NCBI GenBank assembly: GCA_030710605.1
Contig: CP092863.1
Span: forward strand, 143,188,623 to 143,252,622
DNA: 64,000 bases
Direction: 5' to 3'
DNA from: Cordylochernes scorpioides
Lineage: Eukaryota; Arthropoda; Arachnida; Pseudoscorpiones; Chernetidae
Below the pieces are notes generated by a model that saw only the letters and a program-made list of their open reading frames with translations, made no database searches and had not been told where the DNA came from. Every line of letters starts with the position of its first letter. Within the stretch, counting starts at the first letter, position 1. Position numbers and translations under genes: made by a program. Of this stretch, positions 4,214-62,312 are shown in pieces.

Positions 4214-4270
4214 CACGTCACACAGAATGGACCAATCCTATTCGGCTTCAACGAACAGACGCTTTATTAT
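4214..4270. repeat. 57-bp direct repeat flanking the array (inner copy)
   Basis: Identical to 10586-10642, the subterminal 5' part of the Helitron. The two copies bracket the 22-bp array, so the array was gained by an event that duplicated the 5' end of the element. Between here and the ORF start (4109-4213) there is only AT-rich leader DNA. Confidence 0.9.
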
Positions 4271-10200: not shown

Positions 10201-10537
10201 ATCTCATCCCGTGCTCAGTCCCATCTCATCCCGTTCTCAGTCCCATCTCATCCCGTGCTCAGTCCCATCTCATCCCGTGGTCAGTCCCATCTCATCCCGC
10301 TGTCAGTCCCATCTCATCCCGTGCTCAGTCCCATCTCATCCCGTGCTCAGTCCCATCTCATCCCGTGTTCAGTCCCATCTCATCCCGTGATCATTCCCAT
10401 CTCATCTCGTGATCATTCCCATCTCATCCCGTGCTCAGTCCCATCTCATCCCGTGCTCAGTCCCATCTCATCCCGTGCTCGGTCCCATCTCAACCCGTGC
10501 TCAGTCCCATCTCATCCCGTGGTCAGTACCATCTCAG
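4271..10537. repeat. 22-bp tandem array, about 285 units
   Basis: Units of the form TCAGTCCCATCTCATCCCGTGC. The core CCCATCTCATCCCGTG is nearly invariant. The end of the unit varies among a few types: GTGC/TCAG, GTGG/TCAG, GTGT/TCAG, GCTG/TCAG, TTGC/TCAG and GTGA/TCAT. Blocks of units recur as higher-order repeats: 5175-5552 is repeated at 5571-5948, a shift of 396 bp or 18 units, and longer blocks near 8.3-9.0 kb recur near 8.8-9.6 and 9.7-10.4 kb. Since 22 is not a multiple of 3 and the unit has no stop, all plus frames stay open for up to 477 codons; these ORFs are artefacts. Confidence 0.95.
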
Positions 10538-10585: not shown

Positions 10586-10642
10586 CACGTCACACAGAAT
10601 GGACCAATCCTATTCGGCTTCAACGAACAGACGCTTTATTAT
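10586..10642. repeat. 57-bp direct repeat flanking the array (outer copy)
   Basis: Same sequence as 4214-4270, lying six bases inside the Helitron 5' TC end. Between it and the array (10538-10585) is a GC-rich 48-bp segment found only once. Confidence 0.9.
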
Positions 10643-12009
10643 ATGTGATATCTCAGAGATAGCAAGGCCTCGACAACCAATCTTTTGTGTTTATGTGGTA
10701 TGTTAGAATAATGTGATCTTGGATCAGTTGTGTTGAAACTATGTCCTGTCTGTGATATGTGCTGGACAATAAGTGATTTCGGATCGTTATGTCTGATGTT
10801 TCTGTCGTGTTCCTGTATTCTGTCTTTAATGTAACGGCCAGTTTCACCTACATAAACACTGTCGCAATCGTTGCATTTTATGGAATAAACAGCATTGTTT
10901 CTTTGAAGAGTGTTCCGAGGTGTGTTGTCTTTGGTAATAGGGTTCCTTAAGATAGTGCCTATACTAGGGGTGTTGGAAAAGTAGGTGCGGATGCCGAAGT
11001 TCTTTAGTTCTCTAGCTATTTTTATGCTTTGCAAGGAATACGGTATTGTGCAGATGGATTTATAGTTGTCATATATCTTGGTGCGGGATGGGTTATGGAA
11101 ATGCCTTAAAATAAAGTTTTTAGGATAACCAGAGGACATTAAATTTGAAATTATGTTATTTGTTTCCTTTTGCTTTGACTCCTCAGTGTTACAGTGGGTA
11201 TATATTCTCTTGGACAAGGTTCTTACCGTATTGATTTTATGGCTTAATGGGCAGAAAGATGAGAAGTTTATATACATTGGGTGAAAGGTGGGTTTATAAT
11301 AGACTTCAGTATTATATCTATTGCGTGTTTTTGTTATGCGTATGTCCAAAAATGCCAAAGAGTCACATGTTTCAGTATCGGAAGTAAAGTCTATGTCTTG
11401 ATAGAAATTATTCAATGTGTTGAGTATATCATTAAAGGCGTTAATTTTGATTATAGCAAAGACGTCATCTATGTATCTAGACCAGATTAAAATGTCGTCT
11501 GGGAAGATATTAACTATACGTTTATCTATCTTGCGCATCACTATTTCTGAAAGGGGAGAGGATAATGGGCTACCCATAGGGGTGCCTTTGGTCTGTTTGA
11601 AGTAAGCTTGGTTGAATTTGAAAATACTATGGCAAAGACTGATTTTGATAAGTGCAATGAGTTTGGAAATGGTGTCTGTGGGGCAACCTTGTTCGATTAG
11701 AAATTCTGTGGTGCAATCTAGAATAAGCTGGTGGGGGAGACTGGGATATAAATTAACAACATCGAATGAGACCATGATGGTGCCAGGTGTAACTGTTGTT
11801 TGTTGTAACTTACCTATGAAGACAGGAATGGAGGAAATGGTCGTCGGGGAGTCACTATCTCTGAGCATCGGGGCCAGTATTTTGGCTAGATAAGTTGCTA
11901 ACGGAGCTGCAGGGGAGAGGTGGTACGCGATGATGGGTCTTAGTGGGATACCTTCTTTGTGTAATTTAGGTAGACCGTAAATATAAGCTTTTGACATTAT
12001 ATTGGACAA
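10639..12009 (-). pseudogene. PLE1 reverse transcriptase / GIY-YIG endonuclease, C-terminus cut by Helitron
   Basis: 456-codon frame covering the RT (palm motif YIDDVF about residue 180, KGTPMGSPLSS about 145) and most of a C-terminal GIY-YIG nuclease (VYSI..VYVGETGR..R..EH, about residues 375-410). The last codons (HI, stop) come from the inserted Helitron; the true final 19 or so residues lie on the other side at about 3610-3660. The N-terminal region seen in PLE2 is absent because PLE1 is 5'-truncated near 12017. The product would reverse-transcribe nicked-target-primed RNA in the nucleus. RT and nuclease motifs look intact, but the copy is dead as an element. Confidence 0.88.
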
Positions 12010-12731
12010 AATATTTTAAGCTACTACGAGCCCGCACTAAAGGTTGCTATTCACACATCCGTATCCTCACAAAATCAGTTAAAGGCCTCCTATTTCACCT
12101 GTCCATGCGTTTAACAGTTCAAGACATGGCTGATTTTCTTAGAAAAATCACAGAAAACATCAAAAAGCAAGATATTACCATTACAGCTAGACATAATAAG
12201 AAACTAACACATTGGTCCAGAAAATATAACTTCAAACTCGCGCCGAACAATGCCCTACAAACAATAGTGAATCTCTCTAGTTTCCAGCCTACTACAGAGC
12301 ATATAAACATATTATCTAAAGGACTTAAATATAGACCTCAAGCTAGAGCTGATGCCATAACAATCATAGCAGGGGTTGAATCTTCCATTTTCCGCTTAAA
12401 TCATCAAGAGAAGTTTAAAATCAGACAGCACACCGCAACAGTCCTTAGCGACCACAACCAAACCCAACATACCTACCAAATCAACAAAAATGTATTGCGC
12501 TCACTAACAACGAACAAAGATATAACCATCACTAGATCCGATAAAGGTTCACTTACAGTCATCATGAACACATCCGAATACATTTCCAAGATGGACACAA
12601 TACTTGTTGACCCGCACACGTTTACCCCATATCCATAGATGATCAGAATACCGCAACCTCTTCTTTTAAAAAAGAAATCAACAATCTGCTGAGGAAAAAA
12701 AATCATTAGTTCCGAAGAATGCAAATATTTT
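11991..12731 (+). pseudogene. PLE2 N-terminal region, frame broken
   Basis: A frame from about 12018 to a TAG at 12636-12638 encodes the region that precedes the RT in PLEs: an LSKGLK motif followed about 100 residues later by a DKGSLTVIM..YISKM block that matches the N-terminal part of Penelope polyproteins. The stop and a second one (TGA 12690-12692) are in the same frame as the RT ORF downstream. Translation of the intervening 50 bases in the next frame looks like PLE linker, so one small indel near 12630 and a compensating one near 12700 in the A run are the likely breaks. The first few codons before 12018 belong to inverted PLE1. Confidence 0.75.
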
Positions 12732-14153
12732 TTGTCCAATATAATGTCAAAAGCTTATATTTACGGTCTACCTAAATTACACAAAGAAGGTATCCCACTA
12801 AGACCCATCATCGCGTACCACCTCTCCCCTGCAGCTCCGTTAGCAACTTATCTAGCCAAAATACTGGCCCCGATGCTCAGAGATAGTGACTCCCCGACGA
12901 CCATTTCCTCCATTCCTGTCTTCATAGGTAAGTTACAACAAACAACAGTTACACCTGGCACCATCATGGTCTCATTCGATGTTGTTAATTTATATCCCAG
13001 TCTCCCCCACCAGCTTATTCTAGATTGCACCACAGAATTTCTAATCGAACAAGGTTGCCCCACAGACACCATTTCCAAACTCATTGCACTTATCAAAATC
13101 AGTCTTTGCCATAGTATTTTCAAATTCAACCAAGCTTACTTCAAACAGACCAAAGGCACCCCTATGGGTAGCCCATTATCCTCTCCCCTTTCAGAAATAG
13201 TGATGCGCAAGATAGATAAACGTATAGTTAATATCTTCCCAGACGACATTTTAATCTGGTCTAGATACATAGATGACGTCTTTGCTATAATCAAAATTAA
13301 CGCCTTTAATGATATACTCAACACATTGAATAATTTATATCAAGACATAGACTTTACTTCCGAGACTGAAACATGTGACTCTTTGGCATTTTTGGACATA
13401 CGCATAACAAAAACACGCAATAGATATAATACTGAAGTCTATTATAAACCCACCTTTCACCCAATGTATATAAACTTCTCATCTTTCTGCCCATTAAGCC
13501 ATAAAATCAATACGGTAAGAACCTTGTCCAAGAGAATATATACCCACTGTAACACTGAGGAGTCAAAGCAAAAGGAAACAAATAACATAATTTCAAATTT
13601 AATGTCCTCTGGTTATCCTAAAAACCTTATTTTAAGGCATTTCCATAACCCATCCCGCACCAAGATATATGACAATTATAAATCCATCTGCACAATACCG
13701 TATTCCTTGCAAAGCATAAAAATAGCTAGAGAACTAAAGAACTTCGGCATCCGCACCTACTTTTCCAACACCCCTAGTATAGGCACTATCTTAAGGAACC
13801 CTATTACTAAAGACAACACACCTCGGAACACTCTTCAAAGAAACAATGCTGTTTATTCCATAAAATGCAACGATTGCGACAGTGTTTATGTAGGTGAAAC
13901 TGGCCGTTACATTAAAGACAGAATACAGGAACACGACAGAAACATCAGACATAACGATCCGAAATCACTTATTGTCCAGCACATATCACAGACAGGACAT
14001 AGTTTCAACACAACTGATCCAAGATCACATTATTCTAACATACCACATAAACACAAAAGATTGGTTGTCGAGGCCTTGCTATCTCTGAGATATAATAGTA
14101 TAAACAGACATATTGATGTACCTGAGCCGTATATAAGCTTATTACATAAATAG
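12732..14153 (+). CDS. PLE2 reverse transcriptase / GIY-YIG endonuclease
   Basis: 473 codons. The ATG at 12732 is simply the first one after the upstream breaks; the native protein was longer. Domains: thumb-finger segment with YGLPKLHKEG (residues 9-18), RT palm with SFDVVNLYPSLP (about 83-94), KGTPMGSPLSS (about 145-155) and catalytic YIDDVF (about 180-185); then a linker and a GIY-YIG domain with VYSIKCNDCDSVYVGETGR (about 377-395), R and EH downstream and a conserved H region. PLE enzymes cut the target with the GIY-YIG domain and prime reverse transcription there. It differs from PLE1 by a handful of residues. The catalytic motifs are intact, the N-terminal module is broken. Confidence 0.9.
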   Translation: MSNIMSKAYIYGLPKLHKEGIPLRPIIAYHLSPAAPLATYLAKILAPMLRDSDSPTTISSIPVFIGKLQQTTVTPGTIMVSFDVVNLYPSLPHQLILDCTTEFLIEQGCPTDTISKLIALIKISLCHSIFKFNQAYFKQTKGTPMGSPLSSPLSEIVMRKIDKRIVNIFPDDILIWSRYIDDVFAIIKINAFNDILNTLNNLYQDIDFTSETETCDSLAFLDIRITKTRNRYNTEVYYKPTFHPMYINFSSFCPLSHKINTVRTLSKRIYTHCNTEESKQKETNNIISNLMSSGYPKNLILRHFHNPSRTKIYDNYKSICTIPYSLQSIKIARELKNFGIRTYFSNTPSIGTILRNPITKDNTPRNTLQRNNAVYSIKCNDCDSVYVGETGRYIKDRIQEHDRNIRHNDPKSLIVQHISQTGHSFNTTDPRSHYSNIPHKHKRLVVEALLSLRYNSINRHIDVPEPYISLLHK

Positions 14154-14580
14154 CCATCGATGTACCCCATGAATTCCCTGTTTTGTCCATTTATTTTAGT
14201 GTCCTTTTGGAGTGTTTTGCCTTATAAATACTCATGGTTTTATCTCAGTTTACGTCGAACCGTGGGAACGTCCTTTTAGTCTTGTTGCGCTTTTATCTTA
14301 ATACCTTGTAATATTCGTATATTATTCTTCTTAACAAATTTTATTAATTTGCTTATGTCTCGATATTCTTTTTAAACAAAAATCCTAAGTATTACCGATT
14401 ATTTTAAAAATTTTACAACTAATTCTAATAATACATATGCTGATTTATTCTTCGTGTATATAGTGTATCATTTTTCTTATACATTTGATCCTGTAGAAGG
14501 GCCACGCTGTGCCCGAAAGCTTGATGTCCTAATAAAGTGTTGAAAGAAACTCATCTCCTGAATTTTTGTCCTTACCAAGC
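14154..14580 (+). mobile_element. PLE2 3' region with hammerhead-like motif
   Basis: Non-coding 3' part, mirrored at 3143-3600. At 14491-14531 is CTGTAGAAGGGC..GCCCGAAAGC, a 4-bp stem between a CUGANGA-like and a GAAA box, followed by GTC and AATAAAG. This is the layout of the hammerhead motif known from PLE terminal repeats, but the first box reads CUGUAGA rather than CUGANGA and helix III is not closed, so I call it a relic. The right end lacks about 36 bp that the left end keeps. Confidence 0.65.
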
Positions 14581-15793: not shown

Positions 15794-16617
15794 ATGTCTG
15801 GTGGTTCAATGATTGTACCGTTCGGTTTCTTCAGACCAGTGGAATAATCCTTTGATATTTTCGTTCAAAGATTTGAAGCTGCCTTTGTGACGAATGGGCT
15901 GGAGGAGGGAAAAAGAATACCCATCTTTGTTTCTCTGCTGGATTCGGAAATGTTGAAACTGGGCAATGATTTGTTCCTCCCGAGTACAATGAGAGAACAG
16001 CCTTATGAACTGTTAGTACAAAGAATAAAGCTACATCTAGCTCCAAGAAAGAAGGTGATTCCTCAACGATGCAGGTTCTTAAAAGATTTCAACTAGAAAA
16101 TGAATCCGTTTCAGAATACCTGCGTGAGCTCAGGCATTTGGCTATGGATTGCACTTTTGGTGAAATGTTGGAGGTCATGTTACGAGACCGTTTTGTAGCT
16201 GGTATAAAGTCGGAAAGCCTTCAGAAGAAATTGTTGCAGGAGGATGACGATGTCACCTTGGACAGGGTATTTTCTATAGCAGTCTCGTTTGAGCTGGCTG
16301 AACAAAATGCTAAGGAGCTGCAGGATGGACTAGTGGCTAAGATGGATATTGTTCCAGGAGGAGATGGAAAGAAGGAAGCTCGGAGGGGATGGCAGCATGG
16401 GCCCGGTATGCAAAGAAGGGAGACAAATTGTTTCCGATGCGGCGAAAAAAACTCTCACCTTGCACCTGCATGCCCACATAAAACAAAATACTGTTATAAA
16501 TGCAAAAAATTGGACATTCGAGCAGGGTGTGCAAAACGGGTAAATCATTGCCAGACTGCAGATATGTGCAGGACGAATTTATTTATTCGGTACAAGGTGA
16601 TACTGATGCAAAAATAA
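15794..16617 (+). pseudogene. gag: Gypsy gag, three frames
   Basis: Starts at ATG 15794. A TAA at 15845-15847 interrupts it after 17 codons. The capsid-like region continues in the same frame to about 16075, then passes to the next frame near an AAAA run (about 16075-16090), giving a segment with the SVSEYLRELRHLA motif typical of gypsy capsids. A first zinc knuckle CFRCGEKNSHLAPAC lies at about 16430-16475. The second knuckle begins CYKCKK (16491-16508) and is completed only in the pol frame. Confidence 0.85.
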
Positions 16618-19600
16618 ATCTACATGTTGACGAGTATCAGTTGTGTTTTGTGGTGGACACGGGAAGTCCCGTCACACTGATACCGAAAACAATTTATGAA
16701 AAATACTGGAAGGATAACAAATTATCTCCATCTCAATTAAGGTTGAAATCCTTTTGCGGAAAACCTATAAAAATTATTGGTGAGAGAAGAGTTTTTGTAA
16801 GGGAAGCAAATCAAGATTTGCGGTTGATAGTTGTGGATGAAGATATTTCGGTGGTTTTGTTGGGACGAGAATGGCTAAAATGTTTAAATCTTGATTATTC
16901 TAGGTTATTGAACATTAGGCAAGTAAGCGAGTCCGATATCAAAGTTATTATAAATAAGTATGCTGGGTTATTCAGCAAAGAATTGGGTTTCTTAAAAAAC
17001 GTCCATATTGATTTTTATTTTTTAAAAAATACGACTCCTGTATTTTGTAAGGCGAGAAGTTTGCCTTTTACTTTGAAGAAAAATATAGAAACTGAAATCG
17101 ATGGTATGGTTAACGAGGGAATTTTACAACCTATTGAGTATGCTAACTGGGCCGCACCTATAGTACCAGTACTGAAGAAAGATGGAAGCCTTAGAATTTG
17201 CGGCGATTTCAGATGCACCGCAAATAAGGCCATAGAATTGGATAAGTACCCGCTGCCATCAATAGACGAAATATTTTCAAAATTGTCTGGAAATACAGTG
17301 TTTTCGTCATTGGACTTATCCAGAGCTTATTTGCAGGTCAGGTTATCTGAAGAGGCCAAAAGAGTGGTGAACATTAATACTACGAAGGGGTTATTTGCCT
17401 TTAAAAGGCTACCCTATGGAGTAGCTGTAGCACCAAATAAGTTCCAAAGAGAAATGGACAATCTATTTGCAGATATGTCGGAAGTGGCTTGCTACATCGA
17501 TGACATCCTGGTAGCCGGAAAGGATCACAGGGATCACGAACAAAAGCTGGAATTGGTCTTTAAAAGGCTACAAGAAAAATGTTTAAGATTAAACAAGGAT
17601 AAATGCAAATTCGCAGTAAATGCTGTTGAATATTTAGGTTTTAAAATAGATAAAAAAGGACTGCATCCCATAAGTAGTAAAATAGAAGCGGTGGTAGAGG
17701 CGCCTGAACCTACAAACGTTTCTCAATTGAGATCTTTTATAGGTCTCCTTATGTATTACTCTAGGTTTATAAGAAATATTGCAGATATTTTAGCGCCCTT
17801 CTAACACCTCTTAAAAAAGAATTCCAAATTGAACTGGACTAGCGAACACCGTAAATTATTTGCAAAATGCAAAGCATTGCTAACTAACGAGTTGGTGCTG
17901 GCACATTATGATGCAACTAGGGAACTAGTCCTTGCATGTGACGCCTCTAGCTATGGTTTAGGAGTGGTTCTGAGTCACAGGAACGATAGAAAGGAAGAAA
18001 CTCCTATAGCCTTTGCTTCAAGAACGCTAACTGAAGCGGAAAGGCGGTATTCGCAATTAGAAAAAGAAGCCTTAAGCATCATTTTTGGTTGTGAGAAATT
18101 CCGACAATATCTATTGGGACGTGAATTTGTGTTGATCACAGACAACCGACCTTTAATGCACATTCTTTCACCCCAGAAACCGATACCCATATGTGCTGCA
18201 TCAAGAATTAAGAGGTGGTCTTCAAAATTATCTGCATTTAAATACACTGTGGAGTTTCGAAAAACTAATGATAATGGCAATGCAGACGCGTTATCACGTT
18301 TATCTTTAGTCTCAAAGACCACGGAATCTTTGGATGAGGATCAGGTGCTTCTCCTTCGGAAAATGAGTGAGGTCCCCTTCTCATTCCAGGATGTGGCAGT
18401 TGAGACACGCCGGGATAAATTACTATCAATTGTGTTGAGAAATGTTAGGGAAAATAATTGGCCAATTCCAAAGGTATCCTAGGAAAATCCACTTTATTCC
18501 TATTATAGGATAAAAGACGAATTAAGTTGTGAGTTTGGGTGTCTCCAATGGTGTGAAAGAGTGGTAATTCGCCAGAAATTTAGATCCTTAATTTTGAACG
18601 ATTTACATGAGATGCACCTAGGGATGGTGAAAATGAAAATGATTGCTAGACGGTATTTTTGGTGGCCAGGCATAGATAAGAACATTGAAGAGTTGGCTAG
18701 AGATTGTAGAATATGCCAAGAGTCTGCAAGTATGCCGCCGTCTACCATTTCAGAGTGGACTTGGCCTGAGAAGCCGTGGCACCGTCTACACTTAGATCTA
18801 GCAGGTCCCTTTATGGGACGAATGTTTATGGTCCTTGTAGACGCGTACACCAAATGGCTGGAGATTGTCATCATAAAGGACATTACGAGCAGGACTATCA
18901 TAGGACATCTTAGGGAGATCTTTGCCAGATTTGGATTACCTGAACTTTTGGTAACCGATAATGGCAGACAATTTGTCTCAAGTGAATTTGAGGAATTTAC
19001 AACAATAAATGGTATAAGACACACAAAAACGAGTCCGTACAATCCCAGCACTAATGGCTTAGCTGAACGATATGTACGTGAATTTAAAAACTCTTTACGA
19101 AAGAACCAAGTAAAGGACGGTATAGAAATCAATCTACAGCGATTTTTATTCACCCATAGAGCTTTTCCTCAAACGGTATTAAAGGAGTCTCCCGCGGAAC
19201 CTTTAATGAAAAGAAGTCTAAGATCAAGATTTTCAAATTTGATTCCGAAAATGGCGAAGGTAGGAGAGGTGTACCATGATGCCATGAGGAAGCAAGAGCA
19301 TTTTGCGGTCGGCTCTGATGTGAATTTCCGGAGTTTTGCTAACAGACCAAAATGGAAAAGGGGCAGGATCATGGAACTACTAAGCAGACGACATTACCTT
19401 ATAGAAGACGAAGGCCGTTATGTGAAAAGACACATAAATCAACTAAGGCCAGTTATCAAGAAAGAAGTTCCTGAAGTGAGAGATTTGGTATTGCCGGGTA
19501 CATCAAGAGATTTTATACTGCCTGGCACTTCTCGAGATCACCCTGGGCTTGGCGGACAGGAGAAGACAATGGAAGAAGCCCCGGAGGTGGACGAAGAAAT

Positions 19601-19739
19601 TAAAGGAGCGGAGTCTTCAGCACAAGAGGACACTCCAGAACCAGAACCGGGCCCTGCTGCTGCGGCTGTCCCTGTCCCTGTGCGCAGTCCAAGACCGCAG
19701 CGATCCAGAAGACCGCCAGACCGACTGCACTACTATTAA
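16500..19739 (+). pseudogene. pol: Gypsy pol: protease, RT, RNase H, integrase, with two stops
   Basis: One frame throughout. Protease DTGS about 16654-16665; RT with YIDDILV at 17493-17513 and LPYGVAVAPNKFQ before it; RNase H with ACDASSYGLG and TDNRPL (about 17935-18155); integrase with an H-H-C-C zinc finger (about 18610-18720) and D, D, E residues in LDLAGPF, VTDNGRQF and NGLAERY; a basic tail ending in LHYY. No chromodomain. Nonsense codons stand at 17802-17804, between RT and RNase H, and 18480-18482, before integrase; reading resumes in the same frame after both, so each is a point change. Clade within Ty3/Gypsy not decided. Confidence 0.92.
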
Positions 19740-22397: not shown

Positions 22398-24310
22398 TGT
22401 TTTCTTCTCTAACTTCAAGCAAACGTTCCTCCTCCTCATCCTTAACCATCCGTCCCCTGCTCATCCTCAAACATCCGTCCCCCTGCTCATCCTCAACCAT
22501 CCGTCCCCCTGCTCATCCTGATGCATCCGTCCCCCTCCTCATCCTCAACCATCCGTCCCCTACTCATCCTCATGGATCCGTCCCTCTCACCATCCTCAAC
22601 CATCCGTCCCTCTCACCATCATCAACCATCCGTTCCTTCTCACCATCTTCAACCATCCGTCCCTCTCACCATCCTCAACCATCCGTCCCTCTCACCATCC
22701 TGCAGCATCCGTTCCTCTCCTCATCCTCAAACCTCCGTTCCTCCTCATCCTCAAACCTCCGTTCCTCTCCTCATCCTCAAACCTCCGTTCCTCCTCCTCC
22801 TCTAGAATCCGTCCTTCTTACCATCTTCAACCGTCCGTCCTCTCCTCAACATCCTCAATAATCCATCCTCTCCTCAACATCCCAAACATCCGTCCTCTCC
22901 TCACCATCTTCAACCATCCGTCCTCTCCTAAACATCCTCAAACATCCGTCCTCTTCTCAACATATTCAACCATCCGTCCCCCTGCTCATCCTCAAAAATC
23001 CGTCCTCTCCTCATCTTCAACCATCCGTCCTCTCCTCATCCTCAAATATCCGTCCTCTCCTCATCATCAAGCATCCGTCCCTCTCCTTATCCAAGCATCT
23101 GTGTTCCTCCTCAATCTCCATAATTCTGTCCTCCTCAATTTCAGTCAACCGCCCTCCTTCCGAAAATACGCTTCTCATCTTCCTCCGTATTCAGAAATCC
23201 GTTACCTCTCCAATTTCAACCATCAGTCCCTCTCACAAACCTCAACTCATCCGTTCCTCTCCCAAACTTCACTCATCCGTTCTCCATACCATCCTCAAGC
23301 ATCCACCCCCCTCCTCTTCCTCAAGCATAAATCCTCCTCCCCCTTCTCATCCTCAAGCATCCGTCTTCCTCCTCATCTTCAAACATCCATCCCCCTCCTC
23401 ATCCTCAAGCATCCGTCCCCCTCCTCTTCCTCAAGCATCGATACCCCTCCCCCTACTCATCCTCAAGCATCCGTCCCCCTCCTCATCCTCAAGCATCCGT
23501 CTCTTTCCTCATCCTCAAGCATCCGTCCCTCTGCTCATCCTCAAGCATCCGTCCCCCTCTCTTCCTCAAGCATCCGTCCCACTCCTCATCCTCAAATATC
23601 CGTCCCACTACTCATCCTCAAATATCCGTCCCCCTCCTCATCCTCAAGCATCCGTCCCTCTGCTCATCGTCAAGCATCCGTCCCCCTCCTCATCCTCAAG
23701 CATCCGTCCCCCTCCTCATCCTCAAGCATCCGCCCCCCTCCTCATCCTCAAACATCCGTCCCTCTGCTCATCCTCAAGCATCCGTCCCTCTGCTCATCCT
23801 CAAGAATCCTTCCCCCTCCTCTTCCTCAAGCATCCGTCCCTCTGCTCATCCTCAAGCATCCGTCCCCCTCCTCATCCTCAAGCATCCGTCCCCCTCCTCA
23901 TACTCAAGCATCCGTCCCTCTCCTCATCCTCAACCATCCAACCTCCTGCCCAACCTCATCTATCCGTCCTCTTTTCTAATCTCAACCATCCGTCTCCTCC
24001 CCAAGTTTGGCGAGGAGGACGGGTGGTTGAGGTTGGAATGGAGGACGGATGCTTGAGGATGAGGAGGGGGATGGATGCTTGAGGATGAGGAGAGGTACGG
24101 ATGCTTGAGTATGAGGAGGGGGACGGATGCTTGAGGATGAGGAGGGGGACGGATGCTTGAGGATGAGCAGAGGGACGGATGCTTGAGGATGAGGAGGGGG
24201 ATAGGTGGTTGAGGTTGGGGAAGGGAAGGATGGATTAAGTTGGGGAGAGGATCGAATGTTGAAGTCAACCATCCGTCATCTCCCTAACCTCAACCATCCG
24301 TCATCTCCCC
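22398..24310. repeat. 26-bp minisatellite with inversion (copy B)
   Basis: Same organisation as 440-2410: C-rich strand plus to about 23995, then inverted units to about 24255. It is shorter than copy A by about two units near 23890-23930. Long open frames are repeat artefacts. Confidence 0.9.
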
Positions 24311-29924: not shown

Positions 29925-30125
29925 TGATGCACTAGCGCGCCATCTGTTATCAAAAAGCAAAACTATTTTAAAGGCGTAAGATTCATTTTGATATTAAACA
30001 ATTTCTACTGAGTCAGGTCCTCCTATTAATTTTTCCATTGCAGTAAGGGCAGTAGAAATTGTTTAATATCAAAAAGAATCTTACGCCTTTAAAATAGTTT
30101 TGCATTTTAAATACATAATATAAAT
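29925..30125. repeat. FB-alpha palindrome
   Basis: Near-perfect inverted repeat: arm TTTAAAGGCGTAAGATTC.. (about 29968-30005) and its complement at about 30070-30110, with AATTTTTCCATTGCAGTAAG in the centre. Outer left arm has GCGCGCCATCTGTTATCAAA. Confidence 0.7.
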
Positions 30126-30700: not shown

Positions 30701-30759
30701 ATATGAAAAAACAATAGAAAAAAAAATAAAAGATAAGTGGGTCAGGTGTTGATATTAAA

Positions 30760-30975
30760 AATAAAGAAGGCATCTCCTGACCACGAGCACATGTGCTTTT
30801 TAGATGGCAGAACGCCATCTAGTGGATCAAAAATAAACTAAACGTTTATTTAGCTTGCTCCGTGATATTTGGCCAACCCAATTTCTTGATAAAATTTGCT
30901 CCACTAGATGGCGCTCTGCCATCTAAAAAGCAGATGTGCTCGTGGTCAGGAGATGCCTTCTTTACTTTTAATATA
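30760..30975. repeat. FB4 palindrome
   Basis: Arms AAAGAAGGCATCTCCTGACC..GCCATCTAGTGG (30765-30825) and the complement (30900-30965) enclose about 75 bp. Related single arms lie at 43905-44010 and 62955-63005. Confidence 0.75.

Positions 30976-31982: not shown

Positions 31983-32038
<56 letters not shown>
31975..32038. repeat. (AT)n microsatellite
   Basis: About 50 bases of uninterrupted AT directly before the hammerhead palindrome. Similar AT tracts border several other palindromes here (30690, 32821, 43880, 55790). Confidence 0.9.
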
Positions 32039-32042
<4 letters not shown>

Positions 32043-32168
32043 AGACAAGGGTCGCCTCTCCCGTCAAAATAGACGTCCAAAACAGACGCCATCCATTGAC
32101 CGTCGCCGCAACTAGCGGCCTCGGGTCGGTGACAAAGCCACAACACCAGCTTTGGCAAACTGAAAAGC

Positions 32169-32223
32169 GTCCACCTGGAGACCATGGTTTCGGGCTGATG
32201 GCCCTCGTCAGTCCAGGGCGGAC
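32169..32223 (-). ncRNA. Type I hammerhead ribozyme, intact, mirror copy
   Basis: Exact reverse complement of the ribozyme at 32602-32656, in the left arm. Same core, helices and cleavage triplet. Confidence 0.9.
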
Positions 32224-32601
32224 TTTATTCCATGAGATCCACACGGGATCTAATGGAATCTTGACAATCTGCCAAAGAGGTGTTTTGCTGGCAAAGTGGC
32301 TGGGCCATATCTATGGCCAAAATATAGATGGAAATTTTGCCGGGAGGAAAATGATCTAAAGAGACAAGGGTTGCCTCTCCCGTCAAAATAGACGTCCAAA
32401 ACAGACGCCATCCATGGCGTCTGTTTTGGACGTCTATTTTGACGGGAGAGGCGACCCTTGTCTCTTTAGATCATTTTCCTCCCGGCAAAATTTCCATCTA
32501 TATTTTGGCCATAGATATGGCCCAGCCACTTTGCCAGCAAAACACCTCTTTGGCAGATTGTCAAGATTCCATTAGATCCCGTGTGGATCTCATGGAATAA
32601 A

Positions 32602-32656
32602 GTCCGCCCTGGACTGACGAGGGCCATCAGCCCGAAACCATGGTCTCCAGGTGGAC
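32602..32656 (+). ncRNA. Type I hammerhead ribozyme, intact
   Basis: Core CUGACGA at 32614-32620 and GAAA at 32634-32637, cleavage triplet GUC at 32643-32645. Helix I: 32602-32613 with 32646-32656, 11 pairs and one bulged C (32608 or neighbour). Helix II: GGGC/GCCC closing a CAUCA loop (32621-32633). Helix III: ACC/GGU with a 2-base loop (32637-32644). Every core position is canonical. Predicted cleavage between 32645 and 32646. The very short helix III is typical of PLE and retrozyme hammerheads and may favour dimer-assisted cleavage. Confidence 0.9.
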
Positions 32657-32786
32657 GCTTTTCAGTTTGCCAAAGCTGGTGTTGTGGCTTTGTCACCGAC
32701 CCGAGGCCGCTAGTTGCGGCGACGGTCAATGGATGGCGTCTGTTTTGGACGTCTATTTTGACGGGAGAGGCGACCCTTGTCTCTTT

Positions 32787-32935
32787 AGATCATTTTCCTC
32801 CCGGCAAAATTTCCATCTATATATATATATATATTATAGATGATGTTTTGTTTTGACGTTAATTTTAAGGGGAGAGGTGACCTTTGCTTTTCTAGATCAA
32901 TTTCCTCTCGGTAAAATTTCTATCTATATAAATAT
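32787..32935 (+). repeat. Monomer remnants next to the palindrome
   Basis: 32787-32824 completes the direct repeat. After a short AT run, 32838-32928 is a diverged copy of the same segment (GGGGAGAGGTGACC, TTTCCTCTCGGTAAAATT). Confidence 0.7.
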
Positions 32936-33935: not shown

Positions 33936-34260
33936 CCTTTTAGAACGACATTTTAAAATTATCCCGAATGTGTTTCTTTTGAACGAAAAATAGAAATTTA
34001 TTTTTTAAGGAGAAATAACGATTATTTCTAACCTTAGGGATGAAGTATGAAAGGATGAATTGTGAAGAGAATAATGATAACTTCCCATCCCTAGACACTT
34101 TATTTTTCCGTTTATCATTACTCTTTACAATACATCCTTTCATACTTAATCCCTAAGGATAGAAATAATTGTTATTTCTCCCCTTAAAATAAATTACAAT
34201 TTTTCGTTTAAAAGAAACACATGCGGGATAATTTTCGAATTGTCGTTCTACAAAATAGTT
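33936..34260. repeat. FB6 palindrome
   Basis: Arms of about 120 bp (33940-34060 and 34128-34252), moderately diverged, with TTTAAAATTATCCCG and AGAAATAACGATTATTTC. Found once in the window. Confidence 0.7.
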
Positions 34261-34641: not shown

Positions 34642-35280
34642 CACTCATGGACAAAACAGAAGGAAATTTTACCTTTCAGCATGTATATCGGGATTCAGAC
34701 AATAACTCTGAAATATATTACAGTGACCTTTATTGAAGACACACGAGATGACCAAGTGTGAACAAAACTTAAGGAAGTTGTACCTTTTACCATGTATATC
34801 AGGATTCAGACAATAACTCTGAAAGATATTACAGTGACCTTTATTGAAGACACACGAGATAACCAAGTGTGAACAAAACTTAAGGAAGTTGTACCTTTTA
34901 CCATGTATATCGGAATTCAGACAATAACTCTGAAAGATATTACAGTGACCTTTATTGAAGACCCACAAGATAACCAAGTGTGAACAAAACATAAGGAAGT
35001 TTTACCTTTTATATCAGGATTCAGATAATAACTCTGAAATATATTACCGTGACCTTTATTGGAGACACACAAGATAACCAAGTGTGAACAAAGCTTAAGG
35101 AAGTTTTACCTTTTAGCATATATATCAGGATTCAGATAATAACTCTGAAATATATTACAGTGACCTTTATTGAAGACATACAAGAAAAAGTGTTAACAAA
35201 ATTACTTCTTTCTTCTTAAAAAAAAAACAGACGAATGGCGACATCAAAGACTTTTCTTTTCCTCAAGCTTTGTTCATGAG
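34642..35280. repeat. Tc1-like MITE expanded into a 111-bp tandem array
   Basis: Starts TACACTCATGGACAAAAC and ends with TTTGTTCATGAGTGTA, inverted ends flanked by TA as in Tc1/mariner MITEs. Between them about five head-to-tail units of 111 bp run ACTTAAGGAAGTTTTACC..CCTTTATTGAAGACACAC..CCAAGTGTGAACAA. As 111 is 37 codons, the minus frame stays open; not a gene. Confidence 0.75.
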
Positions 35281-36115: not shown

Positions 36116-36312
36116 TTCGTTAACCTTTGGATTTAATGGAATCAAAGCCCGCCCTGAACTAACAAGGGCCATTAGCACGAAACCATGGTCTCTAGGTGGA
36201 CGCTTCTCAGTTTACCAAAGCTGGTTTTGTGGCTTTGTCACCGACCTGAGGCCGTTAGTTTGCGAAGACAGTCAATTGATGGCTTCTACAAGCTTTGATG
36301 TCTATATTTAGA
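36116..36312 (+). repeat. Retrozyme-like monomer fragment with dead hammerhead
   Basis: Matches 32590-32770 of the intact palindrome. The core boxes read CUAACAA and helix II GGGC/GCAC (36157-36180), with GAAA and GGUC kept, so G5 and G8 are lost. Helix I strands are also altered. Confidence 0.75.
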
Positions 36313-37610: not shown

Positions 37611-38024
37611 CTAGCCGAATGGCCCGGGCAACGCCCGGGTTTTACCCGATTAAATGCTTTTATTCAAATACTATTTGTTACAAATATAAAGATAAGTGCC
37701 AGGAGAAAATGTTTTTTATTTATTAGAATAAGAAACATTTTCTCCTGGCACTTATCTTTATATTTTTAATATTCCAAGGAGAAAGTTTCTACGATTAAAT
37801 AAACTATTTGTTACAATTATAAATTGGCGCCGTGGATGTCATTCTTGTGTAATATATAAATGAGTTTTTAAAAATTGTAAAAAAAAAAAAAATGCACCGC
37901 GTGGCAGGCGAGCATTCTACCACTGAACTACCGATGCTTATAAGAAATGGCCATATTTGGGTTTTCATTCCATTCACAAAAGCAAAAAACGGTGACAGAA
38001 TTAAGAATTGATTGATGACTCTGA
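37611..38024 (-). mobile_element. Helitron-like element Hel-2 with partial tRNA-Gly
   Basis: On the minus strand starts TCAGAGTCATC after A (38025) and ends hairpin-CTAG before T. It carries a tRNA-Gly(GCC)-like piece without T arm (37893-37938) and a later insertion, a 78-bp mini-palindrome (about 37688-37765, AAGATAAGTGCCAGGAGAAA). Confidence 0.72.
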
Positions 38025-39002: not shown

Positions 39003-39700
39003 CTCTAGTACATATGGTACAGGGCCATGATAATCATGGTGGGTAGAAGTTGGCGACTGCTTTTACTATAAGTGCACCACATGTCTACACATAAGCCCTT
39101 TTCAAATGAGCTGAAAAAATATATATCAATACAAAATTTAGATTTTATCTTTCTCAAACTAATCCAACTTTCAAAAAGGGATGTACCAAGCTTCATCACT
39201 CCTGATAAATACACTACTTTGTTCTTTACAGGCAAAGGGCCCTTTTTAAGTTTTCCCTTTGACTTGAGAGTTATAAATGATCCATGTGAATGCTGTCTAG
39301 ATGTTGAAACACCATCTTTTGTTGGCTTGCCCTCTGACTAACCAAATTGTACTTGCTTACTTTGACATAATGCCATCTTTCTGTATATACTCAATCTTAT
39401 GAACACTTTGGCAAGTTTAGAGCTATTTATACACAGATTTATAAATCACTACTAATTCATCGTGTAAATAATTATATATATATGTAAATAATTCTAATAT
39501 AGACAATAGTCTGATAGACTTCGTGCTTCTGTAATAATAAAATATAATATAAAATGTCTACACATGTGAAAGGCAGATCGACTTTTACACTTACAAATGT
39601 GCCAGAACCCCGTTTAGTTTTACTTGCACTTGCAGGTGGGGTTGGACTTTTGCAAGAATCGGGGGCCATTAGAGCATTTTTTATAACGCCAACTTTTATC
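39003..39700 (-). mobile_element. SINE, split by a retrocopy
   Basis: SINE end at 39003-39092 (CCATGATAATCATGG, GTGCACCACATGTCTACACA) resumes at 39554 and continues through TTGGACTTTTGCAAGAATCG to about 39690. The tRNA head is missing. Confidence 0.78.
39093..39553 (+). pseudogene. 5'-truncated retrocopy of an unknown mRNA
   Basis: 461 bp inserted in the SINE with a 12-bp TSD (ATGTCTACACAT, 39081-39092 and 39554-39565). An uninterrupted frame from 39093 encodes 82 residues of a protein C-terminus (..KRDVPSFITPDKYTTLFF..SFPFDLRVINDPCECCLDV..SD) and stops at 39339-39341. About 210 bp of 3' UTR follow, ending AATAATAAAATATAATATAAA-like with AATAAA at 39536. This is what LINE machinery makes from a cellular or transposon mRNA. 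I do not recognise the protein. The frame has no lesion, so the copy is young or the source close. Confidence 0.7.
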
Positions 39701-39905
39701 AAGGTGTTATAACATTTTAAAGTGTGTCAACAACAAACTCAGTGTTATAATTGGCTGAATGTCAGCCTTTATCAAGGCGTTATAACACTGAGTTTGTTGT
39801 TGACACACTTCAAAATGTTATAACACCTTGATAAAGGTTGGCGTTCAGCGAACTGAAATATTGGTAAAAATAAACGATTTTTGATCCAATATATGTCTTT
39901 TCAAT
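39690..39905. repeat. FB2 palindrome
   Basis: Several inverted pieces of CACCTTGATAAAGGTTGGCG and AACACTGAGTTTGTTGTTGA; the outer right arm ends TTTTTGATCCAATATATG. Hammerhead-like stem GTTGGC/GCGAAC with GAAATATTGG. Confidence 0.7.
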
Positions 39906-40455: not shown

Positions 40456-40890
40456 CACTTATACACTTATGGACAAAACTTAAGGAAGTTGTACCTTTTA
40501 ACATGTATATCGGAATTCAGACAAAAACTCTGAAATATATTACAGTGACCTTTATTGAAGACACACGAGATAACCAAGTGTGTTTACACTCATAGACAAA
40601 CCTTAAGGAAGTTGTACCATTTAACATGTATATCAGGATTCAGACAATATCTCTGAAAGATATTACAGTGACCTTTATTGAAGAAATACGAGATAACCAA
40701 TATACACTCAAGGACAAAACTAAAGGAAGTTGTACTTTTAAGCATGTATATCGGGATTGAGATAATAACACTGAAAGATATTACAGTGACCTTTATTGAA
40801 GACATACGAGATAACCAATATACACTCATAGACAAAACTTAAGGAAGTTGTACATTTCAGCATGTATATCGGGATTCAGACAATGAAGAT
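40456..40890 (+). repeat. Tc1-like MITE tandem units
   Basis: Four head-to-tail units beginning ACTTATGG or ACTCATAGACAAAAC and containing CAGTGACCTTTATTGAAGA. Confidence 0.75.
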
Positions 40891-42430: not shown

Positions 42431-42900
42431 TTATACACTCATGGAGACAAAACTTAAGGAAGTTGTACCTTTTAGCATGTATATCGGAATTTAGACAATA
42501 ACTCTGAAACATATTACAGTGACCTTTATTGAAGACATACGAGATAACCAAGTGTGTATACACTCATGGACAAAACTTAAGGAAGTTGTATCTTTTAGCA
42601 TGTATATCGGGATTCAGACTATAACTCTGAAAGATATTACAGTGACCTTTATTGAAGACATACGAGATAACCAAGTGTGTATACACTCATGGACAAAACT
42701 GAAGGAAGTTGTACCTTTTAGCATGTATATTGGAATTTATACAATAACTCTGAAATATATTACAGTGACCTTTATTGAAGACACACGAGATAACCAAGTG
42801 TAAACAGAATTGCCTCTGTCTTCTAAAAAAAAATAGACGACTGACGATATCAAAGACTTTCCACTACGTAAGTTTTTATCGATGAGTGAATATGTGATCT
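42431..42900. repeat. Tc1-like MITE tandem units
   Basis: Three units separated by TATACACTCATGGACAAAAC. The far end is TAAGTTTTTATCGATGAGTG, the inverted terminus. Confidence 0.78.
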
Positions 42901-43865: not shown

Positions 43866-44320
43866 TCTTTTTTTATATAACATATATATATATATATGAA
43901 AAAACAATAGAAAAAAAAATAAAAAGGGTCAAGTATCGATATTAAAAATAATGAAAGCATATCCTGAAACAGGAACCCATGTGCTTTTTAGATGACAGAG
44001 CGCCATCTAGTGTAACAGAAATCAATTAAACATTGATTCAACCTATATTCTGATATTTGGCTAATCCAATTTCTTCATAAATAAAAAAAAAGAAAGAAAA
44101 TCAAGAAAAATAAATATAAATATAATCTTTAGGTAATAAAAAGGCATATATTGGATTGAATAAAAGATTTATTTGCAAATAAATATTTTATTCAATCCAA
44201 TATATACCTTTTTATTACCTAAAGATTATATTTATGGATTGCTCTATATTCAGAAAAAATATATATACATCTGTTCTAAAATTGGCCCCTCATTCTTTAA
44301 AAATACATTGTGTATACAAT
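43866..44320. repeat. AT tract, FB4 arm and a small palindrome
   Basis: FB4-like arm at 43905-44010 (GTGCTTTTTAGATGACAGAG) and a palindrome at 44137-44226 with arms AAAAAGGCATATATTGGAT. Confidence 0.6.
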
Positions 44321-44905
44321 AATGGTCACTGTGTTATATTTCAGAGTTATTGTCTGAATCCAGATATACATGCTAAAAGGTACAACGTCCTTAAATTCTG
44401 TCCATGAGTGTATATTATCGAATTTTGACACCAGAACTATTTCTCTAAATTCTGTATCCTTTCTATATCTGGCTAGAATTTTGGAATACTTATAAAACTT
44501 TTATAATTTAATATTTATATCTCACTCGCGAAAATCCATATAGATAACAGAGCTATTGTTAAAATACACTCATGGAGAAAAACTAAAGGATGTGGAAAGT
44601 GTTTAATGTCGCCGCTCATCTTTTTTTATTTTTAAGGAGACAGAGGCTGTTCACACTTGGTTATCTCGTATGTCTTCAATAAAGGTCACTGTAATATCTT
44701 TCAGAGTTATTGTCTGAATAATAATATACATGCTAAAATGTACAACTTCCTTAAGGTTTGTCCATGAGTGTATACACACTTGGTTATCTCGTGTGTCTTC
44801 AATAAAGGTCACTGTAATATATTTCAGAGTTATTGTCTCAATCCCGATATACATACTAAAAGGTACAACTTCCTTAAGTTTTGTCCATGAGTGTATAAGC
44901 AGAAT
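44321..44905 (-). repeat. Tc1-like MITE units, minus orientation
   Basis: GGTCACTGT..TTGTCTGAATCC..GTCCATGAGTGTA near 44322-44412, then a plus start at 44568 and two minus units to 44897. All are decayed. Confidence 0.7.
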
Positions 44906-45200: not shown

Positions 45201-45334
45201 TTTTTATGAACCTTATCCCAGTACAATATCACATTTGTACTATTTTTTCACAATATCATTTATATATATAATTGCCATTTATCGATAAAATATGTAACAA
45301 TAAATATTTAGGAAATGTATCTATTTTCATATAT

Positions 45335-45495
45335 ATCATCAAATAATATCTATACAGACCTTACTGCAATGATAAAAGTGGTTGAATGAGAGGGCTTGGT
45401 TCAACACTGATGAGCCAAGCCCTCTCGTTCAACAACTTTTATCATTGCAGTAAGGTCTTTAGAGATAATATTTGATTCTATATGTGTGAGAATAG
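45335..45495. repeat. Small palindrome of the FB-alpha superfamily
   Basis: Arms AGACCTTACTGCAATGATAA..GAGAGGGCTTGG and complement, loop around GTTCAACACTGATGAG. A larger relative is at 53431-53715. Confidence 0.75.
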
Positions 45496-45534
45496 ATACA
45501 TTACCAAAATATTTATTGTTACAAACATAATAAC

Positions 45535-47199: not shown

Positions 47200-47455
47200 T
47201 ATATACACTCATGGACAAAACTTAAGGAAGTTGTACCTTTTACCATGTATATCGGGATTCAGACAATAACTCTGAAATATATTACAGTGACCTTTATTGT
47301 AGACACACGAGATAACCAAGTGTGTATACACTCATGGACAAACCTTAAGGAAGTTGTACCTTTTACCATGTATATCGGGATTCAGACAATAACTCTGAAA
47401 GATATTACAGTGATCTTTATTGAAGACATACGAGATAACCAATATCCACTCATAT
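47200..47455 (+). repeat. Tc1-like MITE, two tandem units
   Basis: Both units start ACACTCATGGACAAA and run to GAGATAACCAA; the outer inverted end is missing. Confidence 0.75.
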
Positions 47456-49672: not shown

Positions 49673-49784
49673 AGTCACCATTCTGGTTTAGGCATCCTTA
49701 AATATTTCTGTTGATTTCTCGACGAAATCTGTTTCTTGTTCTTCACTATATATTCAGGATGCTGAACAAGTATATATATTAAAA

Positions 49785-50065
49785 TTACAAATATTTTCTC
49801 ACAATGGGTATATTTTTTATTTAAAAAACGCTAGCTTTCAAGTGTTAATCGCTCTTCAACGGGCTTACTATAATATCGACTTTATCCCACCAGAAATATT
49901 TACAAAAACAAACGCGCGCAGCGTATTTTGTAAATATTTCTGGTAGGATAAATTCGATATTATAGTAAGCCCGTTGAAGAACGATTAATGCTTGAAAGCT
50001 AGCGTTTTTTAAATGAAAAAGATACTTATTGTGAGAAAATATTTGTAATTTTAATACTTTTTTTT
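49785..50065. repeat. FB5 palindrome with hammerhead-like arms
   Basis: Arms of about 125 bp around 49915: AAAAAACGCTAGCTTTCAAG..GGGCTTACTATAATATCG. The right arm, plus strand, has CGTTGAAGAACG..CTTGAAAGCTAGCG (49972-50003), the same GAAAGC context as the PLE 3' motif; the stem is weak. Confidence 0.72.
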
Positions 50066-50104: not shown

Positions 50105-50430
50105 ATGAAAAAATAGTACAAATGTGACATTGTACTGGGATAAGGTGCATAAATTATTAAAAAGACATCTCTTTATCGTGCAACTGAAAGTTGCTGATGG
50201 CTTGAGCCATCTATCGGAATAAATATAAACTATTCTCGTTGATTTTTAATTATTCCAGAATTGGCCAAATACGTCCGTGTTTAGCTTTTCTTGATTAATC
50301 AAGAATGGGTATTTGGCCAATTCTGGAATAATTAAAAATCAACGAGAATAGTTGATATTTATTCCGATAGATGGCGCAAGCCATCAGCAACTTTCAGTTG
50401 CACGATAAGGAGATGCCTTTTTCATAATAT
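50105..50430. repeat. FB1 palindrome, complete
   Basis: Arms 50161-50275 and 50303-50420, above 95% alike: GTGCAACTGAAAGTTGCTG..GGCCAAATAC. Contains GATAGATGGCGCAAGCCATC. A short loop surrounds GATTAATCAAG. Confidence 0.85.
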
Positions 50431-50945
50431 ATGTATATATATCTGTTAAGAGAATAACAATTTAAGAAAAGTTCTATGAAGTATTGTATAATCTGATTTT
50501 TTAAGTGAGAAATATATTTTTTCATTTATTTTGTATAAAGATCATCTTGATATTGTACAAAGAAATATTTGTCCATTGAAGTGTAGAAAATTTGCTCGAA
50601 ATCTTGCAAAAAAAAAAAAAGAAATTAAAAGAAACATTTTACCTGAATTTTATATTTTTCAAATAATCTATAGGCCACTATTGCTCATTTAAATAAATCA
50701 TTAATTTAAAAAGGCATATATTGTTGCATCATGATTAATGCGCGTATTTTTAAAATTATTTATAATATTATTTTTAATTTATTTAAAATTTAAATTATAT
50801 ATTTATTTATTTTTATAAAACAGATTATTACTATAAAATATTATGTACTATAAAACATTTGCATTTTGTTACACTAAATACCCCATCTGCTTTAAACTTT
50901 GATGTGATAAATAAAGAGATATTCTAGGTGCTACTTAAATATATA
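50431..50945. other. AT-rich DNA, nothing recognised
   Basis: No frame or family recognised. Confidence 0.5.
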
Positions 50946-53430: not shown

Positions 53431-53715
53431 TTACACAAATAAATTTACTGGCAATGCGCTTCTTTTAAATATCATCAAATATTATCTCTACAGACCTTAC
53501 TGCAATGATATGAGTTATTGAATGAGAGGGCTTGGCTCATCAGTAGTGAACCCTCTCAGCGGTTTCGCCAAATTAATCTCTATAATAGAGCGGGTTCACT
53601 ACTGATGAGCCAATCCCTCTCATTCAATAACTTATATCAATACAGTAAGGTCTGTAGAGATAATATTTGATGATATTTAAAAGAAGCGCATTGCCAGTAA
53701 ATTTATTTGTGTAAT
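53431..53715. repeat. 285-bp palindrome of the FB-alpha superfamily
   Basis: Outer arms ACAAATAAATTTACTGGCAA and complement; inner arms GAATGAGAGGGCTTGGCTC. The centre has CAGCGGTTTCGCCAAATTAA and a TCTCTATAATAGAG hairpin. Confidence 0.82.
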
Positions 53716-55425: not shown

Positions 55426-55464
55426 AGTATAGATTTTAGTAAAGATTATATATATGATAATATA

Positions 55465-55742
55465 TAAAAGCAAAGGTCGCCTCTCCCGTCAAAATAGATG
55501 TCAAAACTAGACGCCATTTATTGACAGTCTCCACAAACTAGCGGACTCGGGTCGGTAACAAAGCCACAACACCAACTTTTAAAAACTGAGAAAGTCCACC
55601 TAGAGACCATCGTTTCGGGCTAATGGCCCTTGTCAATAGATGAATTTCTAGCCTAGTTTTAAAGTTTAATTTGACGGGAGAAGCTTCCTATGCTTTTATA
55701 TATCACTTTCTTCCCGGAAATATTTGCATATATAACAATATA
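55465..55742 (-). repeat. Retrozyme-like monomer, single, dead hammerhead
   Basis: Minus-strand relative of 32414-32786 (CAAAGGTCGCCTCTCCCGTC). Core reads UUGACAA..GAAAC..GGUC, so C3 and G8 are changed; helix II GGGC/GCCC is kept. The other arm is reduced to about 55650-55740. Confidence 0.75.
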
Positions 55743-57528: not shown

Positions 57529-57836
57529 CTAGCCGAATGACCCGGGCAACACCCGGGTTTTACCCGATTAAATGATTTTATTCAAATACTATTCGTTACA
57601 ATTATAAATTGGCGCCGTGGATGTCATTCTTGTATAATATATAAATGAGTTTTAAAAATTGTAAAAAAAAAAAATGTAACGCCTGGGAATCGAACTCGGG
57701 CAACCCGCGTGGCAGGCGAGCATTCTACCACTGAACCACCGATGGTCATGAGAAATGGCCATATTTGGGTATTTATTCCATTCACAAAAGCAAACGGTGA
57801 CAGAATTGATTAAGAAAGAATTGATTATGACGCTGA
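57529..57836 (-). mobile_element. Helitron-like element Hel-2, 308 bp
   Basis: On minus: A | TCAGCGTCAT ... CCCGGGTGTTGCCCGGGTC-ATTCGG-CTAG | T. It carries a nearly complete tRNA-Gly-like sequence in its middle. The clearest of the three copies. Confidence 0.78.
57675..57745 (-). tRNA. tRNA-Gly(GCC)-like sequence inside Hel-2, probable pseudogene
   Basis: Minus strand has the D arm (GGTTCAGTGGTAGAATGC), anticodon arm with GCC (TCGCCTGCCACGCGGG region) and T arm (GAGTTCGATTCCCAGG) of animal tRNA-Gly-GCC, with usable A and B boxes. The acceptor stem no longer pairs: 5' side ATCGG, 3' side GGCGTTACA. It is therefore a pseudo-tRNA or SINE-like promoter carried by the Helitron. Confidence 0.65.
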
Positions 57837-58009: not shown

Positions 58010-58352
58010 TAATCTACAGTCATAGACAAAACTTGAGGAAGTTGTACCTTTTATCATGTATCTTGTATATTAGGATTCAGATAAAAACACTGAAGGATAT
58101 TACAGTGACCTTTATTGAAGACACACGAGATAACCAAGTGTGTATACACTCATAGACAAAACTTAAGGAAGTTGTACCTTTTAGCATGTATATCGGGATT
58201 CAGACAATAACTCTGAAAGATATTACAGTGTCCTTTATTGAAGACACACGAGGTAACCTAGTGTGAACAGCCTCTGTCTCCTTAAAAAAAAACGACAGGC
58301 GACGACATCAGAGACTTTCCAGTTTCTTAGGTTTTGTCAATGAGTGTATAGA
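58010..58352. repeat. Tc1-like MITE, two units with both ends
   Basis: Starts CAGTCATAGACAAAACTTGA and ends TTTGTCAATGAGTGTATA. Confidence 0.72.
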
Positions 58353-61970: not shown

Positions 61971-61972
61971 TT

Positions 61973-62312
61973 AAAGAGACAAGGGTCGCCTCTCCCGTCA
62001 AAATAGACGTCTAAAACCAGACGTCATCTATTGACTGTCGACTCAATTAGCGGCCTCAGGTCGGGGACAAAGCCACAATACCAACTTTGGCAAACTGAAA
62101 AGCGTCCACCTAGAGACCATGGTTTCGGGCTAATGGCCCTCGTCGTTTTTCAGTTTGCCAAAGCTGGTGTTGTGGCTTTGTCACCGACCCTAAGGCCGCT
62201 AGTTGCGGCGACGGTCAATAGATGGCGTCTGGTTTTAGACGTCTATTTTGACGGGAGAGGCGACCCTTGTCTCTTTAGATCAATTTCCTCCCGGCAAATT
62301 TCCATCTATAAA
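61973..62312. mobile_element. Retrozyme-like inverted pair, hammerhead half deleted
   Basis: Left arm (61973-62146) and right arm (62147-62276) mirror each other from the outer CTCTTTAGAT ends to the TTTCAGTTTGCC segment. The left arm (minus) keeps helix II, GAAAC, GGUC and the 3' helix I strand (62110-62146), but the sequence stops inside the CUGANGA box (CGACGA remains). The right arm has no ribozyme. Confidence 0.78.

Follow-up and report, generated by a model that had tools for sequence, protein, structure and literature searches.

A palindromic hammerhead locus in the pseudoscorpion Cordylochernes scorpioides points to a retrozyme-like element with Penelope-type ends

Here we describe a near-perfect palindrome with a hammerhead motif in each arm, located at 32 kb of a 64-kb window (the whole 64,000-nt stretch of contig CP092863.1 of Cordylochernes scorpioides that was analysed). 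The palindrome is likely the insertion of a small, non-coding, retrozyme-like hammerhead retroelement that was moved in trans by the machinery of Penelope-like elements (PLEs). The evidence for this mechanism comes from five loci in the one window. Which enzyme moves animal hammerhead retrozymes is an open question. PLEs have been put forward as a strong helper candidate because of shared type I hammerheads, tandem copies and co-occurrence (PMC7229834), and the available text of PMC7761336 describes metazoan retrozyme repeats as having no conserved motif that reveals the helper. The unit reported here makes the PLE hypothesis directly testable; if it is true, the 3' ends and the head-to-head form of the unit would name the retrozyme helper. 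Among openly licensed papers we found none joining the hammerhead ribozyme and a pseudoscorpion, which does not by itself show absence from print.

The palindrome spans 32035-32790 and consists of two 377-nt arms (32035-32411 and 32414-32790), which are 99% complementary and separated by a 2-nt spacer, with one type I hammerhead motif in each arm (Table 1). The near-perfect palindrome of the original prediction was borne out: within 32039-32786 the only mispairs are C/C at the centre (32412/32413) and T/G (32372/32453). We set q1 of the 319-nt unit at 32414, which puts the hammerhead at q189-q243 and the predicted cut after q232. Each arm comprises a full unit and the beginning of a second one, approximately 55 bases of it on the left and 90 on the right, corresponding to about 1.2-1.3 units per arm. 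A direct repeat of about 319 bp had also been noted; its period is indeed 319, but it covers just 90 nt (32414-32503 equals 32733-32822, 100% identical) and contains no second ribozyme. The unit has a GC content of 51.4% and a circular minimum free energy (MFE) of -124.8 compared with -92.6 for shuffles, none of 100 shuffles being as low.

Table 1. Positions of the features in the window (q, unit coordinates).
Feature	Position	Strand	Remarks
Left arm	32035-32411	-	Head-to-head against right arm; ends at about q55-q58, without tail
Right arm	32414-32822	+	Full 319-nt unit (q1-q319) plus q1-q90 of next unit
Type I hammerhead motif	32602-32656	+	Core and three helices; predicted cut 32645/32646; without Rfam match
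Mirror hammerhead motif	32169-32223	-	Exact mirror of the plus-strand motif
Helix I partners G32611-C32648	32611-32648	+	Differ together in other copies
Conserved stem-loop	32755-32810	+	q23-q78, terminal copy; adjoins both 3' end positions
Tail	32788-32819	+	32 nt, q56-q87; confined to one arm at each inverted locus
TA run, left insertion flank	31984-32036
TA run, right insertion flank	32820-32836
Older 3' part copy	32840-32930	+	About q316 to q90, 78% identical, tail present
Decayed single-arm copy	36128-36276	+	Starts at q153-q171 by alignment; hammerhead core broken
Second head-to-head locus	55456-55734		Minus arm q202 to q55-q61; plus arm about q312 to q89
Third head-to-head locus	61969-62310		Minus arm q203 to q55-q58; plus arm q243 to q89
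PLE (RVT_1, GIY-YIG)	10639-14153		Head-to-head inverted pair, unequal arms
MITE-like palindromic repeats	29952-30108, 30752-30974, 33938-34254, 37678-37769, 39685-39845, 44116-44235, 45293-45523, 49777-50056, 50148-50433, 53431-53714

The 32-kb motif possesses the type I core (CUGANGA...GAAA...UH) and three helices with an open helix I. On the plus strand, the core is composed of CUGACGA (32614-32620), GAAA (32634-32637) and C17 at 32645. Helix II is GGGC/GCCC with the loop CAUCA, the very short helix III is ACCAUGGU (32637-32644), and helix I is CCUGGA/UCCAGG, followed beyond an internal loop by the outer GUCC/GGAC. A type I motif with a complete core and a very short helix III is supported, as is the originally proposed kinship with Penelope and animal retrozymes. 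When both strands of the window were scanned with a descriptor of the core and three helices, composed once the motif was already known, exactly two sites were found, and these are the two mirrored motifs that had been predicted. In 200 dinucleotide shuffles the same descriptor gave four loose matches, none of them with at least six pairs in helix I and at least four in helix II, and the core boxes alone occurred at chance level (10 matches versus 11.7 expected). The covariance search suggested by the original prediction did not back it, as Rfam 15 reported a hammerhead neither at gathering score nor at E <= 10, in a search run without a positive control for such a short helix III. Sub-threshold Rfam matches to mir-4477, TwoAYGGAY and MIR319 lie on the centre of the palindrome hairpin and were taken as chance.

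Structure prediction for the isolated motif, in a model without tertiary contacts, favoured an inactive fold at -25.9 over the hammerhead at -18.6 kcal/mol. For two strands, the MFE shape is a double hammerhead (-59.0 kcal/mol) held by the self-complementary ACCAUGGU. The shape fits, but the energy gain is ordinary (reached by 208 of 300 shuffles), and the dimer energy was discarded as evidence for a double hammerhead. We infer that the 32-kb hammerhead would cut, probably best as a dimer via its self-complementary helix III. A transcript through the whole palindrome is predicted to fold back on itself as a single long hairpin (MFE -800 kcal/mol). There, all ten sampled hammerhead positions pair with the mirror arm, and both hammerheads would thus be hidden. 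The self-cleavage once expected of RNA from either strand is therefore not predicted for a through-transcript, whereas transcripts initiating within one arm could still self-cleave. The hairpin transcript would presumably feed small-RNA pathways. The 319-nt monomer circle that had been envisaged also falls away at this locus, because two cuts 319 nt apart are required and each arm has a single hammerhead. The 32-kb locus hence shows why a head-to-head hammerhead locus alone cannot give unit circles.

A BLAST search of the window with the unit revealed four loci beyond the palindrome, at about 32.84-32.93, 36.1-36.3, 55.5-55.7 and 62.0-62.3 kb. Inverted pairs account for three of the five loci, and each of the three is head-to-head with the 3' ends outward. 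The 32-kb locus alone holds an intact hammerhead within the window; substitutions have disrupted the core of the 36-kb and 55-kb copies, and that of the 62-kb copy is cut short. DNA relatives of the unit were found neither among phage and plasmid records nor among viral contigs or prokaryote genomes, as expected for an animal element.

Further copies are represented by proteins. All six proteins matching the unit at E <= 0.001 (P0121-P0126) belong to C. scorpioides and are translated pieces of the unit, spread over five other contigs; they serve as proxies for genomic copies known here as protein only. In all four sense-frame fragments, the codon at 32611-32613 (Gly here) is Arg and the codon at 32647-32649 (Pro here) is Leu. 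Since every Leu codon has a middle T, position 32648 is T in these fragments, and Arg demands a change at 32611, with A or C as the one-step options. In P0125, an antisense fragment, position 32611 must be A given its Leu, and its Arg gives T or G at 32648 by one step; P0126 reaches only 32648 and has Arg there too. These two codons are the sole residue differences of P0121 over 53 codons. Position 32648 is also T in the 36-kb, 55-kb and 62-kb copies; the 36-kb copy keeps G at 32611 (a G-U pair), with the adjoining pair broken. The helix I pair 32611/32648 is one compensatory event, G-C here and A-U elsewhere, not many. Against the structure stand a helix III change in P0122 (codon 32638), the loss of one outer pair each in P0123 and P0124 (codons 32602 and 32605), and changes at codon 32607-32609 in P0125 that break one inner pair; a helix II change in P0123 is still pairable as U-G. 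The original prediction had named helices that do not covary in other copies as evidence against a ribozyme, and the outcome is divided, with one covarying helix I pair and other pairs broken in some fragments. The readable core positions (A6, C7, A13 and A14, and for TCN codons U16.1 and C17) agree in all four sense-frame fragments. As a separate observation, P0121 and P0122 share exactly q153-q311; the DNA has AG and GT at the borders of this piece, suggesting exons predicted within the element.

The ends of the copies fall into two classes. At each of the three inverted loci, one arm stops at q55-q61 and the other at q88-q90, a difference of about 32 nt. Seven 3' ends were placeable (including that of the 32.84-32.93 kb copy; the 36-kb end was not), three of them short and four long. 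They lie within two 7-nt windows, which was matched by one of 50,000 random sets of seven, given ends placed by hand at the starts of TA runs with a TA blur of about 3 nt (the short ends are at q58-q61 by BLAST). All three pairs combine a short end with a long one, a 1 in 8 chance if ends were drawn evenly. With the ends set at TA-run starts, the flanks contain 12.6 of 19 TA/AT steps versus 4.6 at random places, and none of 20,000 draws was as high. TA runs are present on both sides, and no target-site duplication is readable in the TA repeats. At the centres, the 5' starts are unequal (q316/q1 at 32 kb, q203/q243 at 62 kb and q202/q312 at 55 kb), and the joints share about 2, 1 and 4 bases, respectively, as read by eye.

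Next to both end positions is the conserved stem-loop. In an alignment of six rows, five of them distinct, from four loci, 94.4% of its cells are paired and three pairs are changed on both sides; its covariation score was reached by 8 of 500 shuffles, and the RNAalifold covariation term is small (-0.14). One class of ends lies 4 nt beyond the inner helix and the other 10 nt beyond the outer helix. Relative to the hammerhead, the two 3' ends fall 142 and 175 nt after the cut. None of the eight placed 5' ends is at the cut (q232/q233), and five of the eight arms run through the cut site; the templates of those five were therefore uncut or re-ligated. Hammerhead-cut RNA was rejected as the template on these two counts. 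The five whole arms are in line with the PLE of the anole, whose main substrate is described as uncut RNA (PMC11167929).

These features recall published PLE insertions. Penelope insertions with inverted pseudo-LTRs (pLTRs) are most often head-to-head and lie within simple sequence that is rich in AT; one of the two pLTRs may bear a 31-bp tail (PMC3846280). The anole PLE protein cuts both strands of AT-rich DNA, and both are extended; reverse transcription starts at two adjacent internal RNA sites, the tail being the stretch between them, and the hammerhead is at the frame start, with the start sites 111-118 nt into the frame (PMC11167929). Given that the unit shows the marks of such insertions, a PLE protein acting in trans is the simplest account. 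The head-to-head arrangement, called unusual in the original prediction, is so for published retrozymes, but it is the commonest one for Penelope inverted repeats (PMC3846280).

We thus propose a putative model for the insertion of the unit. Initially, a Penelope-type reverse transcriptase (RT) with a GIY-YIG endonuclease, supplied in trans, would cleave a TA-rich site on both strands. Reverse transcription would then initiate on either side of the break, inside the element RNA at q55 or q88, about 32 nt apart and beside the stem-loop. The two cDNAs would halt at different 5' points and finally be end-joined at the centre, yielding a head-to-head pair with the 3' ends outward. Both the enzyme and the order of events in this model are what we infer for the unit. 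With somewhat less confidence than for this model, we lean towards reading the family as evidence from a genome for the mobilisation of hammerhead retrozymes in trans by Penelope machinery. The unit would carry a compact Penelope recognition module, namely a hammerhead and, 142-175 nt on, a stem-loop whose two RT start sites are separated by about 32 nt, and a single event would prime one cDNA per side of the cut, followed by head-to-head joining.

The main alternative, which we regard as unlikely, shares this insertion mechanism and differs in the nature of the unit. The unit would be a solo pLTR, perhaps with the frame start, of an autonomous Penelope family elsewhere in the genome, that is, a PLE fragment and not an independent retrozyme. 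Penelope commonly occurs as solo and inverted pLTRs (PMC3846280), and the order of a hammerhead (with an ATG in helix III) and then two 3' ends resembles the anole PLE (PMC11167929). However, the unit matches none of the 120 PLE-related proteins listed (best E 0.05), among which no helper was identified either, and it recurs after 319 nt without an intervening RT frame. A coding signal is absent as well, as substitutions are even across the codon positions (17/14/19) and indels disturb the frame in three of the four copies compared. The reading of the unit as the start of a PLE frame is disfavoured on these grounds and was retained as a rival.

Snap-back self-priming, as proposed for Penelope (PMC3846280), may instead have produced the inverted pairs. 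It fits the 32-kb centre and perhaps that at 62 kb, but it demands that the first cDNA be copied back just short of the tail every time. Mobilisation of the retrozyme by another RT, with the inverted pairs formed later or by twin priming, appears improbable to us. LINEs have been named beside PLEs as possible helpers (PMC7229834), yet the product of twin priming has an inverted 5' part and a single 3' end, whereas all three inverted loci have two outer 3' ends and show two fixed end points. A fold-back DNA transposon or MITE, or an assembly artefact of palindromic reads, would suit the near-perfect 32-kb arms and the company of other palindromic repeats of 92-317 bp, but is scarcely credible, given that the two ends are offset by about 32 nt at each inverted locus, that the arms are unequal in length and 5' start, that single-arm copies exist, and that one artefact cannot explain three loci of different age and centre plus fragments on five other contigs.

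The window also contains a PLE of its own, which shares the head-to-head form of the unit's inverted loci, with arms at 10648-12017 and 12724-14093 (99% identity, 1370-1381 nt, 706 nt between). Its frame has matches among C. scorpioides proteins, such as one of 93% across 98% of the query and one of 99% across 43%. BLAST within the window found the unit sequence absent from this PLE, which makes the two separate elements, and an RT and GIY-YIG frame is absent from and beside the unit in the window. This PLE itself is at most a possible helper of the unit. Downstream of the PLE frame, at 14490-14535, is a stretch judged by eye to resemble a degenerate hammerhead (CTGTAGA, GGGC/GCCC and GAAAG). 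Elsewhere in the window, ten other palindromic repeats (92-317 bp, MITE-like) are without similarity to the hammerhead unit. A 22-bp minisatellite of about 285 copies, open in several frames, occupies 4269-10536; two similar 26-bp minisatellite blocks, with an inverted part in each, are found at 457-2326 and 22415-24232; and a repeat of about 110-123 bp forms dispersed short arrays (34651-35201, 40460-40884, 42432-42801, 44652-44897, 47202-47442 and 58015-58265). The retrotransposon at 16009-19739 has RVT_1, zinc-binding and integrase core domains, with a 58% match of the integrase part to a K02A2.6-like protein of C. scorpioides, and the minus strand of 57683-57738 gives a partial tRNA-like match barely above gathering score.

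In comparison with known systems, the unit combines features of two families. Like the animal non-LTR retrozymes described in PMC7229834, it has a type I hammerhead, is non-coding and dispersed, coexists with PLEs and shows strong predicted self-pairing, and its 319 nt lie inside their range of 170-400 nt. It departs from them in forming head-to-head pairs with one hammerhead per arm, in this window only, instead of head-to-tail tandems with at least two hammerheads, and in a GC content above their value of below 45-50% (PMC7229834). It further departs from them in its Penelope-type two-site 3' ends, which we did not find described in the available text of that paper. Its hammerhead is similar to those of newt and axolotl (PMC7229834), whose helix III has one or two pairs and ends in a palindromic tetraloop, as the predicted two-strand MFE shape is a double hammerhead; unlike them, the 32-kb locus is without a tandem dimer. 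Helix III of the unit is longer than in minimal PLE hammerheads (PMC7761336), and the unit differs from PLEs in lacking the RT/GIY-YIG frame. In common with PLEs and their pLTRs (PMC11167929, PMC3846280), it displays head-to-head arms, a tail of 30-40 nt on one arm, an AT-rich target, and a hammerhead that precedes two RT start sites lying next to a stem-loop. Because two retrozyme features and the defining PLE frame are missing in the window, we claim membership of neither family, and propose the unit as a retrozyme-like non-autonomous element with Penelope-type ends, which works like a PLE-mobilised element.
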